Positions 2,497-11,675 of a stretch of 64,000 nt of DNA are shown piece after piece. The translations under genes and the position numbers were made by a program. The notes under the pieces were generated by a model. The model worked only from the letters and a program-made list of their open reading frames with translations. It had not been told where the DNA came from and made no database searches. The stretch covers positions 124,001-188,000 of the forward strand of contig JAUHXS010000003.1 of the NCBI GenBank assembly GCA_030426955.1. Direction: 5' to 3'. This stretch comes from Bacteroidia bacterium (GTDB lineage Bacteria; Bacteroidota; Bacteroidia; Chitinophagales; JAUHXS01). Each line of letters opens with the position of its first letter. Position 1 is the stretch's first letter.

Positions 2497-3654
2497 TTGG
2501 AAACAGCAATACTAGTAGGACTAATAAATGATCAGCAACGAGAGGAACAGACTGAAGAATATCTCGATGAGTTAGAATTTTTAGCATCTACTGCAGGAGC
2601 AAAAACAGTAAAGCGATTTATACAAAAGTTACCGCACCCTGACCCCGCGACATTCATCAGAAAAGGAAAGCTAGAGGAAGTTGAAGAATATGCAGCATGG
2701 AAAGAGGTTGATATGGTTATTTTTGATGATGACCTTTCGCCTTCTCAGATAAATAATATCCAGAAAAAGTTCAAGTGTAAAGTGCTTGATCGAACCAATC
2801 TGATTCTTGATATTTTTGCTGCTAGAGCCAAAACTGCACAGGCAAGAACGCAAGTAGAGCTGGCACAAATGGAATATCTATTACCTAGATTAAGAGGTAT
2901 GTGGACACACTTAGAAAGACAAAAAGGAGGTATTGGTATGCGCGGTCCTGGAGAGACTGAGATAGAGACTGATAGACGTATTGTGCGTGATAAAATCAGT
3001 AAGCTGAAAGATAAGTTAGATAAAATTGACAAGCAAAATGCTACGCAACGAAAAACAAGAGGAGATCTAATCAGAGTGGCGCTAGTTGGATATACCAACG
3101 TTGGAAAATCCACCATTATGAGGTTATTAAGCAAGTCTGATGTGTTTGCGGAAAACAAACTCTTCGCAACATTAGACACTACAGTGCGGAAAGTGGTGTT
3201 TGACAGAATGCCTTTTTTATTATCCGATACGGTGGGTTTTATTAGAAAGTTGCCACACAACTTAGTAGAGAGTTTTAAGTCTACCTTAGATGAGGTTCGA
3301 GAGGCAGATATATTAATGCATATAGTGGATATTGCTCATCCGGCATATGAAGATCATATTAGAGTAGTTGATCAAACACTTAAGGAAATTGATGGCACAG
3401 AAAAGCCTACCATGATGGTTTTTAATAAGATGGACTTATACGAAAAGAGAAATTTTGATCCATATTTAGAAGAGGATGTGAAGCGCAATTTATTAGATGA
3501 GTTAACAAATAGCTGGCTAGCCAAGACCAATGAAAATGCAGTATTTATATCCGCGATTGAAAAACAAAACATTCAAGAGTTTCGATCAAAATCATATACC
3601 ATGATTAAAAGGATGTATCAAGAGCGGTATCCCTATAAGTCGGAGATGTTTTAA
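2497..3654 (+). CDS. hflX: GTPase HflX
   Basis: Ribosome-associated GTPase that can split stalled 70S ribosomes. The 385 residues hold the N-terminal HflX domain, a glycine-rich linker (GGIGMRGPGETEIETDRR, about 146-163) and a GTPase domain with G1 GYTNVGKST (about 198), G3 DTVGF (about 243) and G4 NKMD. The start is a TTG: an in-frame stop lies 12 bases upstream and no ATG is available. The gene is divergent from sdpI-helicase. The last 60 bases contain a 31-bp segment that recurs exactly beyond the vapBC module. Confidence 0.95.
   Translation: METAILVGLINDQQREEQTEEYLDELEFLASTAGAKTVKRFIQKLPHPDPATFIRKGKLEEVEEYAAWKEVDMVIFDDDLSPSQINNIQKKFKCKVLDRTNLILDIFAARAKTAQARTQVELAQMEYLLPRLRGMWTHLERQKGGIGMRGPGETEIETDRRIVRDKISKLKDKLDKIDKQNATQRKTRGDLIRVALVGYTNVGKSTIMRLLSKSDVFAENKLFATLDTTVRKVVFDRMPFLLSDTVGFIRKLPHNLVESFKSTLDEVREADILMHIVDIAHPAYEDHIRVVDQTLKEIDGTEKPTMMVFNKMDLYEKRNFDPYLEEDVKRNLLDELTNSWLAKTNENAVFISAIEKQNIQEFRSKSYTMIKRMYQERYPYKSEMF
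3593..3623. repeat. 31-bp direct repeat, left copy, inside the 3' end of hflX
   Basis: These 31 bases are identical to 4404-4434 in the same orientation. Here they encode part of the hflX C-terminus (SYTMIKRMYQE region). The bases on both sides differ between the copies. The two copies bracket vapBC, an arrangement like the att-type duplication at a gene's 3' end. Confidence 0.9.
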
Positions 3655-4031
3655 ATTAATTGATTTTTCTTTAACATCGGATAGTGCTTTTTGTTCAATG
3701 TCCAAAGCTTTAATTTCTGATCAGCAGCAATAGCTCCAATTAAGGCATCGGCAATCTCTAGATTATGACTTTTAGCAAATTGTTTTAAAAACTTTCCTGC
3801 AAGTTTTCCAATATTTTCATCAATAGATAATACAGGAAATGTTTTAAATACAGATTCTATTTTATCTTCCTCTCCTGACCTTGATCCCGCCCATATTTCA
3901 GCAACACTTATAGAAGTTGTATGGATTGCAGCGTTTTGAGATAACTTTTTTAATTTTTTGATTATCTCTTGCTTCCCACGAAGACACCAAATAACTACAT
4001 CCGAATCAAGCAAAACATCGCTATTCTTCAT
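3651..4031 (-). CDS. vapC: VapC-like PIN-domain ribonuclease toxin
   Basis: 126-residue PIN-domain protein, the usual toxin half of VapBC modules, which cleaves RNA in a Mg2+-dependent way. Visible acidic residues fit the PIN active site: D9 and D11 in LLDSDVVIW, E in SVAEIWAG, and D in IADALIGAIA. The C-terminal LWTLNKKHYP is the typical last strand. It overlaps the antitoxin gene by 11 bases and ends 4 bases inside the hflX terminus on the opposite strand, so the two genes converge tail to tail. Confidence 0.9.
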   Translation of the reverse strand: MKNSDVLLDSDVVIWCLRGKQEIIKKLKKLSQNAAIHTTSISVAEIWAGSRSGEEDKIESVFKTFPVLSIDENIGKLAGKFLKQFAKSHNLEIADALIGAIAADQKLKLWTLNKKHYPMLKKNQLI

Positions 4032-4269
4032 ATAGCCTTTTTAGTCGAGAGTTCGTTCTTAAAGTTCGTATGTGTTTATCTACATCATAATCTTGATCGG
4101 ACCAAATTCCAGCAAAGTTGTCAATAGCTGAAGCAGTATTGCCTTTCACAGATAACTTCTTTCGTAGCACCTTCCGAATAAGATCTGAGATGCTTATTCC
4201 TAAGGCTCGACTTTGAACACGAAGTGCGTAAAAGAGATCTTCATCTAAGTATATTTGCGTCCTTTTCAT
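4021..4269 (-). CDS. vapB: Ribbon-helix-helix antitoxin of the VapBC module
   Basis: 82-residue protein whose N-terminus, MKRTQIYLDEDLFYALR, is a typical ribbon-helix-helix beta strand followed by helix, then ISISDLIRKVLRKK. Such antitoxins neutralise the PIN toxin with their C-terminus and bind their own promoter as dimers. It is the first gene of the pair and overlaps vapC by 11 bases, indicating translational coupling. A near-perfect palindrome overlaps its start codon and is the obvious operator. Confidence 0.88.
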   Translation of the reverse strand: MKRTQIYLDEDLFYALRVQSRALGISISDLIRKVLRKKLSVKGNTASAIDNFAGIWSDQDYDVDKHIRTLRTNSRLKRLYEE

Positions 4270-4403: not shown

Positions 4404-4434
4404 CATATACCATGATTAAAAGGATGTATCAAGA
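4404..4434. repeat. 31-bp direct repeat, right copy
   Basis: Exact second copy of 3593-3623, non-coding here, 811 bases away and beyond vapBC. It ends two bases before the stop codon of the neighbouring lipoprotein gene. Together with the left copy it marks the probable edges of an inserted toxin-antitoxin segment. Confidence 0.9.
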
Positions 4435-4436
4435 TC

Positions 4437-5123
4437 TCATTCCGTATTTGAATTGGGAAATCTAAAGAACTTACCAATTGATATTTGAGTTCTTGCTGAA
4501 AAGTCATCCGTCGATGTAAGTTGCCAAGCAAACACCCAGTTTCTTTTGCTATTGAAATTGAACCCAAAACTATTTATGTGATGCTGAAAATACTTTTGGG
4601 GTTGACTGCTATAGTTTAGATAGCCAACAGACCCAATATGACGTGTAAAATTAAATGTAAAGCTCGAATTGTTTTTCAGCTTTATAGTAGCAAATACTGG
4701 TAATGAAGTCCAAAATTGCTGTTCAACAGCCTTAACATTTGAGGCAAAGGGTTGCAAGCCTACTTGAGGCCTTATAGCACAAGCGAATTTTGTAGTCTGA
4801 GTTCCTAAAATTTGCCATTTTAAAGCATATGAAAGACCTTTTTGGATCCCATAGCCTATACAGTGGTCAATAGAATGTTTTGAGCCCCAATTGTAATGAA
4901 CTGTTGGCGTAATGGGTATAGAATAGAGCAACCATTCTCCTGATTTGCCAGTCTTTACTCCAGATTTGAATTTATTAGCCAGATGATGGGAGTTCTGAGA
5001 GTCAAAAGCAAGTAATAACTGCCTTTCTTCTTTCTGTAATGCTACCGCTGAATAATATTGAGTGGTTTGACAGCTAGAAAATAAAAGGACTATAAACGTG
5101 ATAATTGGTATATTTCGCATCAA
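4437..5123 (-). CDS. Uncharacterised lipoprotein, possibly outer-membrane associated
   Basis: 228 residues. The N-terminus is a lipoprotein signal with hydrophobic stretch FIVLLFSSC, giving a lipidated cysteine near position 18. The rest alternates short aromatic and polar strands and ends in an aromatic-rich segment, which suggests a small beta-rich or barrel-like fold. No family was recognised. The stop codon lies two bases from the 31-bp repeat, so an insertion event may have trimmed or replaced the original 3' end. The gene is divergent from the LuxR-type regulator at 5261. Confidence 0.6.
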   Translation of the reverse strand: MMRNIPIITFIVLLFSSCQTTQYYSAVALQKEERQLLLAFDSQNSHHLANKFKSGVKTGKSGEWLLYSIPITPTVHYNWGSKHSIDHCIGYGIQKGLSYALKWQILGTQTTKFACAIRPQVGLQPFASNVKAVEQQFWTSLPVFATIKLKNNSSFTFNFTRHIGSVGYLNYSSQPQKYFQHHINSFGFNFNSKRNWVFAWQLTSTDDFSARTQISIGKFFRFPNSNTE

Positions 5124-5260: not shown

Positions 5261-6733
5261 ATGTTAAGAGTATTACGTGTTTTTTTATATATAACAATCT
5301 TACTTTATGTAGGCAAGACACAGGTATATTCCAAATCAAAAACTCTTTACAATGAAAACCAACAAGCTAACCTTAGCGGATACACGTTCTACTTTATAGA
5401 TACAACCAATGAGCTCTCATTTAAGGACATTGACGATCGAAAATTTTCATTAAGTCAGGAAACACGGTCATTAGACTTTGGCTTAACTTCTTCTACAGTT
5501 TGGTTAAAGTTTAGTGTTAACAATCATTCAGATATTCAAAAATGGATACTGGAGATTGACTACGCACTTATTGAACACTGTACGCTATATCAAGTGAAGC
5601 AAAGCTCCGTTCTTAAAAGTACAATAGGCTCTGGAGAGCCATTTTCTAACAGAGAAATTAAGACAAGAACGCTTGCTTTTCCCTTAATGGTAGACTCTTT
5701 GAGTACTTATTATATGCAATTAAAAAGTGGACACCCTATAAAAGTTCCATTAAAGGTTTATAATTCTATTGCATTTTATAAAAAAGTCAATAACGACAAT
5801 ATCGTATTTATGATATACTATGCCTTTATTATTGCCATGTTTGTAATGAATATTATTTTTTATATCACCATAAGAGATAATATTCATCTTATATACTCCT
5901 TTGCTCTTCTAGGGTTTGGCATTGGACTAGGTACAGATAGTGGATTAAGCTATATGTATCTGTGGCCTGATAGTCCAAGCTTTAATATTTATTCTAACCC
6001 AATCATTGGGTCAATCACTTTTGCATTGATGAATTGGTTTATGCGTAAGCTTTTATTGAGTAAAGTTTACGCGCCGATGACTGATAAAATAGTATTGCTA
6101 TTCCAATATTTTGGTTTTGGATGGGCCATTATATCTCCTTTGCTATTTAGTACTATGGCGGCACAAACAACACTCTTTTTAACTACGGTCTTGTCATTTC
6201 CGTTTATTATTACAATTGGGGCTAAAGCTTGGAGAGCTGGCTATACTCCAGCAAAGTACTATTTTCTTGGATGGCTAGGGCTTGCGATAGGAGTAACTAT
6301 TTTTGTTTTAGACTTTACAGGAGTATTCCCAAACACTATAGCTTCTTATGGTTTATATATCGGTTCAGTATTAGAAATCACCTTTTTTGCAGTTAGCCTT
6401 GGTATGAGATTTAGGATATTGGAAAAGCGGGAACAAAGTTATAAAGACCGTCTGGCCAACTACAAGGAACAAGTTCTTAATAAAACATCTGAGCAAACAA
6501 ATTTGCCCGAACATCTCGCAAAGTTGTCTACTAGAGAAGAAGAAGTTTTATCTAATATTGCGATTGGTTTAAGTGATAAAGAAATTGCTGAGCGGCTTTT
6601 TATCTCTGTTACAACTGTTAAGACACATGCCCGAAGCATTTTCAGTAAGCTTGATGTCAAAAACAGAACAGAAGCAGTAGTTGTCGCTAATAAATACCAG
6701 CTCGTAAATATCAACACTTCTGAGTCCATATAA
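5261..6733 (+). CDS. 7TM-DISM membrane receptor with C-terminal LuxR-type DNA-binding domain
   Basis: 490 residues. A signal sequence (1-24) precedes a periplasmic 7TMR-DISMED2-like domain (about 30-175, with SSTVWLKF), then seven membrane helices (about 185-395), a short coiled-coil, and a LuxR/GerE helix-turn-helix at about 423-475 (LSTREEEVLSNIA, LSDKEIAERLFIS, TVKTHARSIFSKL). It probably senses a periplasmic ligand, perhaps a carbohydrate, and regulates transcription directly from the membrane. The only usable start is ATG 5261. Its target is unknown. It stands alone, followed by terminator-like hairpins. Confidence 0.85.
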   Translation: MLRVLRVFLYITILLYVGKTQVYSKSKTLYNENQQANLSGYTFYFIDTTNELSFKDIDDRKFSLSQETRSLDFGLTSSTVWLKFSVNNHSDIQKWILEIDYALIEHCTLYQVKQSSVLKSTIGSGEPFSNREIKTRTLAFPLMVDSLSTYYMQLKSGHPIKVPLKVYNSIAFYKKVNNDNIVFMIYYAFIIAMFVMNIIFYITIRDNIHLIYSFALLGFGIGLGTDSGLSYMYLWPDSPSFNIYSNPIIGSITFALMNWFMRKLLLSKVYAPMTDKIVLLFQYFGFGWAIISPLLFSTMAAQTTLFLTTVLSFPFIITIGAKAWRAGYTPAKYYFLGWLGLAIGVTIFVLDFTGVFPNTIASYGLYIGSVLEITFFAVSLGMRFRILEKREQSYKDRLANYKEQVLNKTSEQTNLPEHLAKLSTREEEVLSNIAIGLSDKEIAERLFISVTTVKTHARSIFSKLDVKNRTEAVVVANKYQLVNINTSESI

Positions 6734-6755
6734 CTTTTAATTGTCTTTGCTATAA

Positions 6756-6800
6756 CATCCCTCGAAAGGATGATTTTTTAGTATTTCATCCTTTTGGATG
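6756..6800 (+). terminator. Terminator-like hairpins after the LuxR-type gene
   Basis: CATCC (6756-6760) pairs with GGATG (6768-6772) and is followed by a T run at 6774-6779. A second CATCC-TTTT-GGATG hairpin follows at 6787-6800. The stems are short, but position and T tract fit intrinsic termination. Confidence 0.5.
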
Positions 6801-6858
6801 AGGTATCTTTTTCTCTTTCTTATTAGTATCGTAGAATTCAAATCAAACAAATTAAAAA

Positions 6859-7866
6859 ATGAAAAAACTAATACTACTAATTACAGTCATATTGACTCTT
6901 GCAATAACACTTAAAGCACAAAAGGGAACTGCAAGAAAAAGCATAAGTGAATTGAATGTTGAACATAAAAAAATGGGATTACCCGAATTGCCAGAAAAGG
7001 AGTTTATGAACCTTAAAAAATTTAAGGTCTCCAAAGACATTAAAAAGATACATACCGCAACAGTTCCTCAAGCAACAGAGTGGTGTGATAAAGTAGATAA
7101 ACTAATAAAGGCGAAAGACCTAGATGGGCTAGAAAACTTAAAATGGGAGTACGTTTATTTTGATTATGGTTCTGGAAGAAGTAGTGATGTATCTATCGTA
7201 AAAGTTAACACTACGATATTGCCCAATTTTTCTCTTAGAGGGGGTAATGAAGATATATTCTATGAATATTGGAATAAAGTCGGCATTACTATGGCAATCA
7301 ATGGCAGACTAGGCTATATAGCAGAAGACCATATTAAAATTACCCCAACTAAAGATAATAGAGGTGCTAAGCTATACGAAACAGTCCATATTAAAAAGCA
7401 GCTTGAATTGTTAAAAGCAATTAGAAGTGAGTTTGAGAAAAAAGGCGGAGACTTTAATAAAGAAATTGTTAAACTACTTAATAATTCAAGTATTGATAAA
7501 AGTGAGCGTAATGGATATGCATACTATTATATGCGCAACTACTTTACGGAACTTGACATATACGATAAAGAGGTTATTGAAAGCTTAATGCCTTATTATC
7601 ATGCACATGAACAGTGGATATTTTATTTATCTAGTGCAAACTATAAACCTGCAATTCCTAAGTTTTATGAGGCATTAAAAAATGAAGATGTAGATACTAG
7701 AGCGGAAGCTGTTATCGCTCTTGGTAGAATGAAAGTAAAAGAAGCACTGCCTAAGTTAGAGCTAATTGCTAAAAGTGATACTTATTACTATGTAGATAAT
7801 GATCTCTATAAGGTTTACCCCGTAAGAGATAGGGCAAAAGAAGCTATTCAAAAAATAAAATTATAA
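6859..7866 (+). CDS. Secreted protein with C-terminal HEAT-like repeats, function unknown
   Basis: 335 residues with a cleavable signal peptide (MKKLILLITVILTLAITLKA). The middle part (about 75-165) is a mixed domain of no recognised family. The C-terminal third looks like HEAT-type helical repeats, for example VDTRAEAVIALGRMKVKEALPKLELIA, pointing to protein binding. It starts a run of four plus-strand genes with gaps of 18, 58 and 9 bases, likely one operon. Confidence 0.65.
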   Translation: MKKLILLITVILTLAITLKAQKGTARKSISELNVEHKKMGLPELPEKEFMNLKKFKVSKDIKKIHTATVPQATEWCDKVDKLIKAKDLDGLENLKWEYVYFDYGSGRSSDVSIVKVNTTILPNFSLRGGNEDIFYEYWNKVGITMAINGRLGYIAEDHIKITPTKDNRGAKLYETVHIKKQLELLKAIRSEFEKKGGDFNKEIVKLLNNSSIDKSERNGYAYYYMRNYFTELDIYDKEVIESLMPYYHAHEQWIFYLSSANYKPAIPKFYEALKNEDVDTRAEAVIALGRMKVKEALPKLELIAKSDTYYYVDNDLYKVYPVRDRAKEAIQKIKL

Positions 7867-7884
7867 ACCTAAGGCTATAGCATA

Positions 7885-8301
7885 ATGGAAAAATATCTAT
7901 TTGTAGAAAAAATACATGTTCACGAAGGAATTGCTTCAGGAACTATATTGCAGGCAGCCTTTTTATTCACAAAAACGCATATTTATAAAATGCCTTTGGA
8001 GTCAATCGGTAGTCACGGTCTGTCTATGACTAACACCAGCTACTTAAATACAGAAGCACTTCTAAATGACGTATTTGAAAAAATAGAGAAGGAGGGGCTG
8101 GAAAGTGTAGAGGCATTTCTAAAAGCCGAAATCCCCAAAGAATGGGTTTATCAGGTTTCGGATCTTGAAAAACTTGAAATTCAGGTAGGTTTTTGGGTTT
8201 TCGGAAAAGTGAAAATAAAAGGAAATGGAGAACCAACAATGGTTTTAAATCTTCAGCCAAAAGCAAAAAGAGAAACACTAAAAGAGTTATATAGCTTATA
8301 A
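7885..8301 (+). CDS. Uncharacterised cytoplasmic protein, paralogue of 8621-9052
   Basis: 138 residues without signal peptide or membrane segment. It resembles the 143-residue product of 8621-9052 over its full length: both share an N-terminal F-x-K/P-x-H strand, a middle helix with V-E-x-F/L and D-x-V/E, an IPxxW motif (IPKEWVYQV here) and a W-x-x-FG-x-x-K strand near the C-terminus. No known family was recognised. It lies 18 bases after the HEAT-like gene and 58 before a small membrane protein. Confidence 0.65.
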   Translation: MEKYLFVEKIHVHEGIASGTILQAAFLFTKTHIYKMPLESIGSHGLSMTNTSYLNTEALLNDVFEKIEKEGLESVEAFLKAEIPKEWVYQVSDLEKLEIQVGFWVFGKVKIKGNGEPTMVLNLQPKAKRETLKELYSL

Positions 8302-8359
8302 ATGATTTAAACAATACAACTAATTAATTATTAAAGCTTAATAAAATAAATTAACAACA

Positions 8360-8611
8360 ATGGAAACAGAAAAAAGGACTTTAAAAGAAATCTTCTATAA
8401 TACATTTTTAGTAGCGATTATAGGTTTTGTAGCAGGTGGGTTGAGTTATTACCAATTGACTAAGCTTGAGGAAAGTGGAGGGACAATGGAAGTAAATCAG
8501 TTATTCGCATTTTTATACGAAAACTTTGGTAAGGACGTAACAGTTGGCTTTTTCCTTTTAGTCGGAGTTGGATTTGCAATAAAGGGAATAATTGATATCA
8601 TAAGAAGATAA
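8360..8611 (+). CDS. Small two-helix membrane protein
   Basis: 83 residues with two hydrophobic segments at about 15-33 (FLVAIIGFVAGGLSYY) and 61-78 (VGFFLLVGVGFAIKGIIDII). The charged N-terminus suggests a cytoplasmic start. No family was recognised. It sits between two paralogous soluble proteins, 9 bases before the second one, which suggests a shared function. Confidence 0.65.
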   Translation: METEKRTLKEIFYNTFLVAIIGFVAGGLSYYQLTKLEESGGTMEVNQLFAFLYENFGKDVTVGFFLLVGVGFAIKGIIDIIRR

Positions 8612-8620
8612 GCTTAAGAT

Positions 8621-9052
8621 ATGATTGAGGAAAAGGATTTTATTTTTATTAAAAAGGCATATAAAAATGAACTCCTTTCCACTGGTTTTATTAGGAAGGC
8701 AAGTGTCTTTTTTACCCCTAACCATGTTTTTGTATTACCTTATGATGCTTCTTTTCATTGGGCACTAGAAAGTTTTTCGGTTACCTCTGAAGGGTTTGAC
8801 GTAGAAAGCTTTGTAGATGAGGTCATTGAAAGTTTGAGTGAGTATACACTAGAGGAGTTTGAGGTGCATATGCTTCGTCAGATACCAAGTGCCTGGCAAT
8901 TTGAGATCAAGAAGCTTAAGATTTTTTCTCAATCAAATTGGTTGAAAATTTTTGGAACGCTAAAGCTTAAAAGAGAAATAGGGGATCGAAAAATTCTGTA
9001 TACATCTAGTAGAAAAATAAATGCCATAAGAGGTTTTTATAGTTCTTTTTAA
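8621..9052 (+). CDS. Uncharacterised cytoplasmic protein, paralogue of 7885-8301
   Basis: 143 residues. The pattern matches its neighbour at 7885: FFTPNHVFVLP, FVDEVIESL, a helix with EEFEVHML, then IPSAWQFEI, WLKIFGTLKLK. The alignment by eye is weak but collinear, so an old duplication is likely. No signal peptide or known domain was seen. It is the last gene of the four-gene run and converges with 9071-9637. Confidence 0.65.
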   Translation: MIEEKDFIFIKKAYKNELLSTGFIRKASVFFTPNHVFVLPYDASFHWALESFSVTSEGFDVESFVDEVIESLSEYTLEEFEVHMLRQIPSAWQFEIKKLKIFSQSNWLKIFGTLKLKREIGDRKILYTSSRKINAIRGFYSSF

Positions 9053-9070: not shown

Positions 9071-9637
9071 TTAAAGTAGCAGTTTTTTATTTGTGTTAAA
9101 TAGAAAAGCTTTTCTTTCTGAATATCCGAAAGTTGCTTTAGGTAGCTGAAGCTTTAGTAGCCTCATTAGTAAGTTAGCACGAGACAGCCTAGTTGTCATA
9201 GAAAAATGCTTCCCATTAGCTAGACAAAAATACAATGTGGTAATTCTAATAAACTGAATTCCAAAAGGCATATTAATTGTGACTAACGGGTAAACCCAGA
9301 CAATTTCTTTTGGCCTGTTTAAGATAATTTCTGTTAGATTATGCTTCTTTGAAAGGAAAGGAATGATAGCATGATATAATAAAACACTCGCTAGGAAAAT
9401 AATACCTATCCCGGAAATATTGATGAAAAGCTCCCAGTTTTCAAGATGCTCTGAGGAATTATACATCAACATGAAACAACCTACCAGAAAAAGCGGAATA
9501 CAAAATGACAATTCTAATAGTAAGTTCTTTCGTTCAATCTTCCTAATTAGACATATAATATCATATGCATTAGCTAGTTTGTTGAACTCTCGTTCAACTT
9601 GCCAACGTGTTTTTTGCTTTTGAGATCGAACTGTCAA
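9071..9637 (-). CDS. Two-helix membrane protein of the PspC operon
   Basis: 188 residues. A basic N-terminal half (RWQVEREFNKLANAYDIICLIRK region) precedes two membrane helices at about 41-59 and 71-92, then a cytoplasmic domain with an ITTLYFCLANGKHF strand. No family was recognised. The proposed TTG start at 9637 overlaps the TGA stop of the upstream mini-PspC gene; the first internal ATG would remove the first 56 residues. Gene overlap supports translational coupling with the two PspC-domain genes. Confidence 0.6.
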   Translation of the reverse strand: MTVRSQKQKTRWQVEREFNKLANAYDIICLIRKIERKNLLLELSFCIPLFLVGCFMLMYNSSEHLENWELFINISGIGIIFLASVLLYHAIIPFLSKKHNLTEIILNRPKEIVWVYPLVTINMPFGIQFIRITTLYFCLANGKHFSMTTRLSRANLLMRLLKLQLPKATFGYSERKAFLFNTNKKLLL

Positions 9638-10163: not shown

Positions 10164-11258
10164 TTAAGAATTTGTCAAATCTATGGATACAAAAAGTTCT
10201 CTCCCTAAACTATATGGGATTAACCCCTTGTGTTGGAATCTGCCAATGATTATAGCTGGATGAGTTTTTATCTTCTTAGCAATTTTCGTAACAAGTTCTG
10301 CATTTAAAGTTGGATATTTTGAAACCTCTTCTTCTTCTTGTTTGCTAAAAACCCATTCAGCAGCAAATTCATCAGCTTCTTTTTCCTTTTTTTCGTCTTT
10401 ATCGTCATAATCCACTTTCTCTAGAAAGATATCTTTCTTGCCATGTAATATGATATGTCCTGCCTCATGAAAAAATGTGAACCAAAAAGCATCATTTCTC
10501 TTATATCTACCTGATAATTGTATAAGTGGCGTATCACCAAGCCATCTTGTAGAACCACTTATTGGTGCTTTGGGTAATGTAGGTGTTGGAACAACCTTTA
10601 CTCCTGCTTCTAGACAGATCTCCTGTAATTGTTTAAAGAAGTCTTTAGGCTGAGCAGCCATAATACTCTTAACTTTGGGAAGCGCTTTTTCAAATTTACT
10701 TTTTGAATAGGTTGCTGAATTTATTCTGGAAGCCAAGATGTCCCCTTGCCTTAGCCAAGCTGATATTGCTTGTGGAGCTTTTGTATGCGCCAATGAAATT
10801 CTAAATCTGGTTTTTAATTGAGATTCATAATAAAAATGATTCCATGATTTATGATCTGATATCGCAAAGAACCCCAACATTACTTCAACCCTTTCTTCTT
10901 TTTTCGTCACCTTAGGAATCCACCCCAACTTAACCATACTGGCATATGGAAAGGTATCTACCCATTCCTCTGCTTGTTTTAGTTTTTCTTTTCTTTTAAG
11001 CCTAGCCACCGCTTCTTCATAATTTAACTGTCTTTGCAACCAAAACTTTGCAGGAATTCCTAAGACTTTTTCGAACTGTACTGACATTTCTGGTGTAATC
11101 GATGATTCTCCTTTTAGTATTGCTGTTATAGTTTTCTCTGGTTTACTTGTTCTTATTGCAAATTCTTTGGGTCCCATTCCCAGTTCTTCAAGTTTTTCGG
11201 CTAGTGTGGTTCCTGGATGGCTGACTGAATCTGGCACATACTGGTTGATTGTTTTCAT
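10164..11258 (-). CDS. HigA-type antitoxin: HTH domain fused to an ImmA/IrrE-like metallopeptidase domain
   Basis: 364 residues. The N-terminus is an XRE/HigA helix-turn-helix (HPGTTLAEKLEELGMGPKEFA, TSKPEKTITAILKGESSI, about 15-60). The C-terminal half is ImmA/IrrE-like with the zinc motif HEAGH at about 264 and a downstream EADEFAAEW helix giving a further ligand. The partner toxin is directly upstream, 49 bases away, in the toxin-first order typical of HigBA. It probably binds the toxin and the operator. Whether the metallopeptidase domain is active is unknown. Confidence 0.85.
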   Translation of the reverse strand: MKTINQYVPDSVSHPGTTLAEKLEELGMGPKEFAIRTSKPEKTITAILKGESSITPEMSVQFEKVLGIPAKFWLQRQLNYEEAVARLKRKEKLKQAEEWVDTFPYASMVKLGWIPKVTKKEERVEVMLGFFAISDHKSWNHFYYESQLKTRFRISLAHTKAPQAISAWLRQGDILASRINSATYSKSKFEKALPKVKSIMAAQPKDFFKQLQEICLEAGVKVVPTPTLPKAPISGSTRWLGDTPLIQLSGRYKRNDAFWFTFFHEAGHIILHGKKDIFLEKVDYDDKDEKKEKEADEFAAEWVFSKQEEEEVSKYPTLNAELVTKIAKKIKTHPAIIIGRFQHKGLIPYSLGRELFVSIDLTNS

Positions 11259-11307
11259 GACTGTTATTGGTTTATTGGCTTAACTGTATTGATTTGTTGT
11301 CACTTAA

Positions 11308-11640
11308 TTAGTGATAATCTATTATTTCCATAATTCTTACATTTTTAATTTTTGACCACTCATATTGCCCATTTTCGTTTTCTGGAATTGGATTTTCCTC
11401 TGGCTGATATATCAATCGGTATGGATTGTCTAGATCACAAGCCCACTGCCCTTTTCTATTGCTGGTTAGTTCATGATGTCTGCCTGGCAAATCTCTAACA
11501 TCTTCTAACACTTCTATTGCCCTTAGGTCATCCAATCTTTGTTTTAATTTATTGGCTCTCTTTTTTCCTAGCTTGCCAATAGCAAGCTTTGTGTCATTAG
11601 CATACTTTTCTAGCTTTTTATTATTAAACGTAATTTGCAA
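11308..11640 (-). CDS. higB: HigB/RelE-family toxin
   Basis: 110 residues from the TTG at 11640 (QITFNNKKLEKYAND), which matches the usual beginning of HigB proteins. An upstream GTG at 11664 would add 8 residues but lies inside the palindromic operator, so I reject it. Conserved features are the helical pair with LGKKRANKLKQRL, LPGRHHEL and WACDLDNPYRLIYQP, typical of ribosome-dependent mRNA interferases of the RelE fold. It precedes the higA-like gene. Confidence 0.85.
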   Translation of the reverse strand: MQITFNNKKLEKYANDTKLAIGKLGKKRANKLKQRLDDLRAIEVLEDVRDLPGRHHELTSNRKGQWACDLDNPYRLIYQPEENPIPENENGQYEWSKIKNVRIMEIIDYH

Positions 11641-11656
11641 AATATTATTATAAATA

Positions 11657-11675
11657 ATTAACACTTTGTGTTAAT
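11657..11675. promoter_or_regulatory. Palindromic operator of higBA
   Basis: Perfect inverted repeat ATTAACAC-TTT-GTGTTAAT, 17 bases upstream of the preferred TTG start. A -7-like box (CAAAGTTA on the plus strand, 11687-11694) lies just upstream, so a bound repressor would cover the transcription start. Confidence 0.65.

Follow-up and report, generated by a model that had tools for sequence, protein, structure and literature searches.

The four genes described here are not to be treated as a single conserved system: the one member whose surroundings could be compared across genomes, a small membrane protein, has different neighbours from genome to genome, and this argues against a machine of four fixed parts. 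A tentative reading is that they form an accessory operon peculiar to this lineage, whose small envelope or immunity-like genes act separately, as opposed to one conserved machine, and this reading stands level with one in which the genes share no function. Any function would be assigned by association, through one gene of the four, and three of the four products appear to belong to no known family. Little is added beyond annotation; if the accessory reading is true, the list of lineage-specific accessory genes grows by a sparsely distributed family of two-helix membrane proteins and a pair of orphan paralogues.

The cluster lies in a stretch of 64,000 nucleotides (the window, contig C18 from base 124001) of a 3.41 Mb draft genome in 23 contigs that is 97% complete. 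Four genes in one direction with short gaps had been predicted, and this arrangement is confirmed by the coordinates (Table 1), by gaps of 18, 58 and 9 nt and by a normal coding signal. A codon log-odds test, with 25 genes of the window as the training set (mean of the trained genes 0.26, lowest 0.17), gives all four genes 0.21-0.34 in their own frame, within the range of the trained genes, and at most 0.08 in every other frame. At each of the three codon positions their GC content resembles that of the training set, and a simple scan of the first two gaps found no promoter-like -33/-7 pair. All four are real bacterial genes and are probably co-transcribed.

Table 1. Features of the four-gene cluster and its leader (positions in the window)
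Feature	Position	Strand	Basis
Two hairpins, each followed by a T run	6756..6806	+	leader upstream of the cluster, after the LuxR-type regulator
Predicted secreted HEAT_2 protein, 335 aa	6859..7866	+	Pfam match and signal peptide read from sequence
Paralogue A, soluble protein, 138 aa	7885..8301	+	no family; paralogy by BLASTP
Protein with two predicted transmembrane helices, 83 aa	8360..8611	+	hydrophobic stretches
Paralogue B, soluble protein, 143 aa	8621..9052	+	no family; paralogy by BLASTP

The cluster is flanked on one side by a 7TMR-DISM/LuxR-type regulator gene (5261-6733) and on the other by a convergent gene (9071-9637). The regulator, a membrane-bound protein with a 7TMR-DISM sensor and a LuxR-type DNA-binding end, is encoded immediately upstream in the same direction and could control the cluster. 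In the leader between them, the hairpin segments GGATGA / TCATCC / GGATGA permit alternative pairings; the folding z is -1.89, 7 of 200 shuffles fold equally well, and the region scanned contains two terminator-like sites where 1.3 are expected. Weak as this signal is, the hairpins are probably the terminator of the LuxR-type regulator.

The only cluster gene for which relatives were found, and hence the only one to which a test of gene order is applicable, is that of the 83-residue product. Its prediction as a small two-helix membrane protein is upheld by two hydrophobic stretches, the best 19-residue windows of which start at residues 11 and 60. As a query it matches 5 of 247 genomes at E <= 0.01, its own and four others, and one of these (G249) was accepted, with an intact relative at a per-genome E of 4.2e-5 (BLASTP 2e-8, gapless over 62 residues). 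A two-sequence profile of this pair then matches 4 of the 129 relatives of G249, namely G249 itself, G812, G834 and G826. The G812 relative is intact (E 1.5e-9 in its genome, alignment A2; tblastn 7.5e-5), and that in G834 is decayed, with an early stop and a short frame (E 2.3e-8). The decayed copy occupies positions 6704-6880 of locus L147, beside a DUF1266 gene. A three-sequence profile finds six matches among the 124 relatives of G812: G812 itself, G834 and four weak matches, which were dropped. The weak matches set aside in all these searches lie in G259, G345, G365, G826, G831, G855, G893 and G788; those examined in detail (G259, G365, G826, G893 and G788) lie in longer membrane proteins, contain stops or are other small proteins. 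The result is two intact relatives and one decayed relative, spread over three genomes that belong to the same class, and none in plasmids or viral contigs.

Alignment of the three sequences leaves 12 columns invariant, and five of these (E37, N46, Y53, G57 and K58) fall in the inter-helix loop of about 25 residues, which is therefore probably the working part of the protein. The protein would sit in the inner membrane; by the distribution of charge, its two ends would face the cytosol and the E..N..Y..GK loop would lie outside. To judge from these matches, the two-helix family to which it belongs is thinly spread and has different neighbours in each genome.

In G249, the two-helix gene is preceded by a 269-aa gene of no named family and followed directly by a DUF1266 gene, beyond which lie DUF7738/DUF6892 and then DKNYY. 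In G812, an unnamed 229-aa gene stands before it and a gene on the other strand, presumably aroQ-like, after it, with no recognised immunity-type neighbour. In G834, the decayed gene comes directly after the DUF1266 gene, presumably lipoprotein-like, and MORN and another, presumably LemA-like, gene follow; a SUKH-1 gene occurs about 4.4 kb further on in the same array and DUF6985 upstream. Thus DUF1266 is directly beside the two-helix gene in two of the three genomes (G249 and G834), and a SUKH-type gene is near it in one. The upstream neighbour in G249 (P0006) was considered for a resemblance to the 138-residue paralogue and rejected as not significant: none of 300 shuffles reached its score at first, on repeat 126 and 153 of 20000 did so, BLASTP gives E 0.11, and the pair was one of several tried.

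None of the other three cluster proteins was found near the two-helix relatives of G249, G812 and G834 (tblastn at E <= 1 over 13.5-15 kb), nor in the corresponding stretch of G826, in a run that re-found the two-helix relative in G812 alone and so misses relatives as distant as those of G249 and G834. The expectation that the same gene order would recur in other genomes is thus not borne out, and neither is that of a conserved four-part system, as the neighbours of the two-helix relatives differ and none is one of the other three genes. Among the relatives listed, the source genome is alone in its family (f1).

The two soluble products on either side of the membrane protein had been proposed to be related, and they are true paralogues. 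BLASTP aligns them at 49.3 bits (E 4e-13; 28 of 111 residues identical, 25%), and their Smith-Waterman score of 130 is reached by none of 2000 shuffles (mean 30, maximum 58). On sequence grounds they are old, diverged paralogues, and both would be cytosolic. The collinear pattern originally described for the pair survives in part. FTxxH and IPxxW are aligned and common to both; VE..V is partial, its common positions being the E and, six residues further, the V; and W-x-x-FG is wrong, since the aligned stretches are GFWVFG and WLKIFG, in which FG alone is common and the two W residues are unaligned. The residues common to both are E-x4-G-x-I-x2-A-x3-FT-x2-H-x4-P, IP-x2-W and FG-x2-K-x-K.

The claim that neither paralogue has a known family also holds, as hmmscan against Pfam, NCBIfam, PADLOC and PHROGs gave no credible match, the best being an NCBIfam PACE transporter model at 20.5 bits against a cut-off of 180; a profile of the pair reaches a best E of 0.39 against PDB sequences. 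As single queries, each matches 1 of 149 genomes, its own, in both copies. The profile search with both paralogues that the original prediction had suggested yielded no accepted relative outside the source genome: it matches 2 of 395 genomes of the phylum and 2 of 396 of the order (overlapping sets, the counts of which are not additive), in each case the source genome and one match judged to be chance. These two, L006 (E 0.003; 35 residues of an 85-aa frame adjoining a TonB-type receptor gene) and L010 (E 0.005; two internal stops), were dropped because such values are about the level expected by chance over some 400 genomes each. No relative was found in plasmids or phages and none was confirmed in viral contigs. 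A back-translated pattern (E-G-hydrophobic-A-FT-H-P) recovers both window genes and is found in none of 100 shuffles. The corrected residue pattern occurs in one stretch of the viral contigs, which is no relative by profile. In the genome contigs, pattern matches number 309 stretches, none confirmed as a relative. A relaxed pattern occurs there in at least 120 stretches, with no relative by profile among the matches listed, and relatives may yet be present in these contigs. The searches for relatives are bounded by first-look filters and peptide patterns, and 'orphan' accordingly means not found in these searches.

Monomer models of the paralogues, built from a two-row alignment, have mean pLDDT values of 42.7 and 40.2, too low for a fold to be assigned. 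At a pLDDT of about 40, both begin with a pair of strands, followed by two helices, a further three or four strands and a final helix, and Foldseek returns nothing at E <= 0.001 for either. A PH/GRAM-like fold was considered from the strand order and set aside, with no profile match.

The first gene had been described as encoding a HEAT-like secreted protein, which stands as a prediction. Its first 20 or so residues form a likely Sec signal peptide without a lipobox Cys, read from the sequence (MKKLILLITVILTLAITLKAQ) without a dedicated program, and the protein would be exported to the periplasm. At about residues 256-312 it matches PF13646 (HEAT_2) with 29.4 bits and an E of 9.7e-7, above the curated cut-off of 27.7 that marks membership; in the search of its own genome the score is 31.5 bits. 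Unlike HEAT_2 proteins, it has just a short repeat stretch, together with a larger unmatched N-terminal part and the likely signal peptide. In the PDB, residues 233-310 find mainly alphaRep chains, which are artificial and HEAT-like, and residues 21-230 match nothing. Among 395 genomes, two match the protein, its own and one at a chance-like E of 0.007 (L009), dropped as the match falls in an endonuclease-like gene; plasmids and viral contigs contain no relative.

In the accessory-operon reading, the cluster would be a few lineage-specific genes of accessory function, probably transcribed together and comparable to heterogeneous arrays in which small genes of unrelated kinds stand side by side. 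Each product would have its own protective, immunity-like or envelope-stress role, and the two diverged copies would widen the range recognised rather than form a heteromer. The coding signal, the paralogy and the differing neighbours of the two-helix relatives argue for this reading. In the part of PMC3482391 drawn on here, SUKH, two-helix Imm17 and HEAT-repeat proteins are all given as immunity proteins, and the first two occur in arrays of unrelated small genes termed 'polyimmunity loci'; DUF1266 and DKNYY go without mention in that part of its text. Like such loci (PMC3482391), the cluster is a run of small unrelated genes, with diverged paralogues in tandem, a protein of two helices and one with HEAT repeats. 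The company kept by relatives of its two-helix gene, DUF1266 in two genomes and SUKH in one, recalls these loci too. In contrast to these loci, as characterised in that part of the source by tandem genes of recognised immunity families, the cluster contains no such family (none of its four products matches one) and no toxin was seen. The source genome, at 97% completeness, has no SUKH or RHS-repeat match, so that a toxin source for the accessory reading stays hypothetical. The 83-residue protein resembles Imm17, as tabulated in PMC3482391, in being small and in having two transmembrane helices. Imm17 differs in its WxW and R between the helices, as given there, since the 83-residue protein contains no W and hence no inter-helix WxW; it has no match to Imm17 in Pfam at E up to 1.

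Just as probable as the accessory operon is the absence of any shared function, whereby unrelated orphan genes in a stretch of gene gain and loss share a message and either have separate minor roles or evolve almost neutrally. Three of the four products are without relatives found, and toxin-antitoxin-like pairs lie on both sides of the cluster (3651-4269 and 10164-11664), as this alternative would expect. Nevertheless, all four genes carry a normal codon signal, the GC content of the cluster is not clearly different from its surroundings, and the two paralogues remain intact at about 25% identity, which suggests selection.

The membrane-tethered heteromer of the original prediction is rather unlikely. 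Here the two-helix protein would anchor the paralogues to the inner membrane, and the HEAT protein would be their periplasmic partner. The gene order, the short gaps and the position of the membrane gene between the two paralogue genes speak for it, as does the place of highest conservation in the membrane protein, the presumed periplasmic loop, on the side of the putative HEAT partner. Against it, tblastn found none of the other three genes near the relatives of the two-helix gene, and the paralogue models have a pLDDT of 43 and 40. A more elaborate proposal, in which the paralogues would be a new family forming a heterodimer docked where both ends of the two-helix protein reach the cytosol, and the loop of that protein would read the state of the periplasm through the HEAT protein in a lineage-specific envelope-sensing complex, is improbable. 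Eag chaperones cover the helices of type VI effectors, and PsbP and EagT6 are related in fold. That the paralogues are likewise Eag-like adaptor chaperones covering the hydrophobic helices of the 83-residue protein is very improbable, for the EagT6 chains (6xrf, ranks 13 and 16) and PsbP chain (2xb3, rank 30) in the Foldseek lists have E values of 0.6-1.3 and TM-scores below 0.3 on models of pLDDT about 40, which makes them meaningless by the Foldseek rule, and there is no sequence match to a chaperone family.

Two further loci in the window merit description. The 3' end of a gene at 2497-3654, presumably hflX-like, forms a direct repeat of 44 nt, about 31 nt of it exact, with copies at 3593-3636 and 4404-4447. 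The two copies flank a PIN/ribbon-helix-helix toxin-antitoxin pair on the minus strand (3651-4269), and the second continues as an alternative C-terminus of the hflX-like gene; the pair looks like a module inserted at the end of that gene. On the other side of the cluster, the locus at 10164-11664 encodes an HTH and M78-peptidase protein (PADLOC PD-Lambda-2_B, E 9.9e-36) beside a HigB-like toxin, which at 26 bits is slightly below the Pfam cut-off of 27, and is a candidate toxin-antitoxin or PD-Lambda-2-like defence pair.
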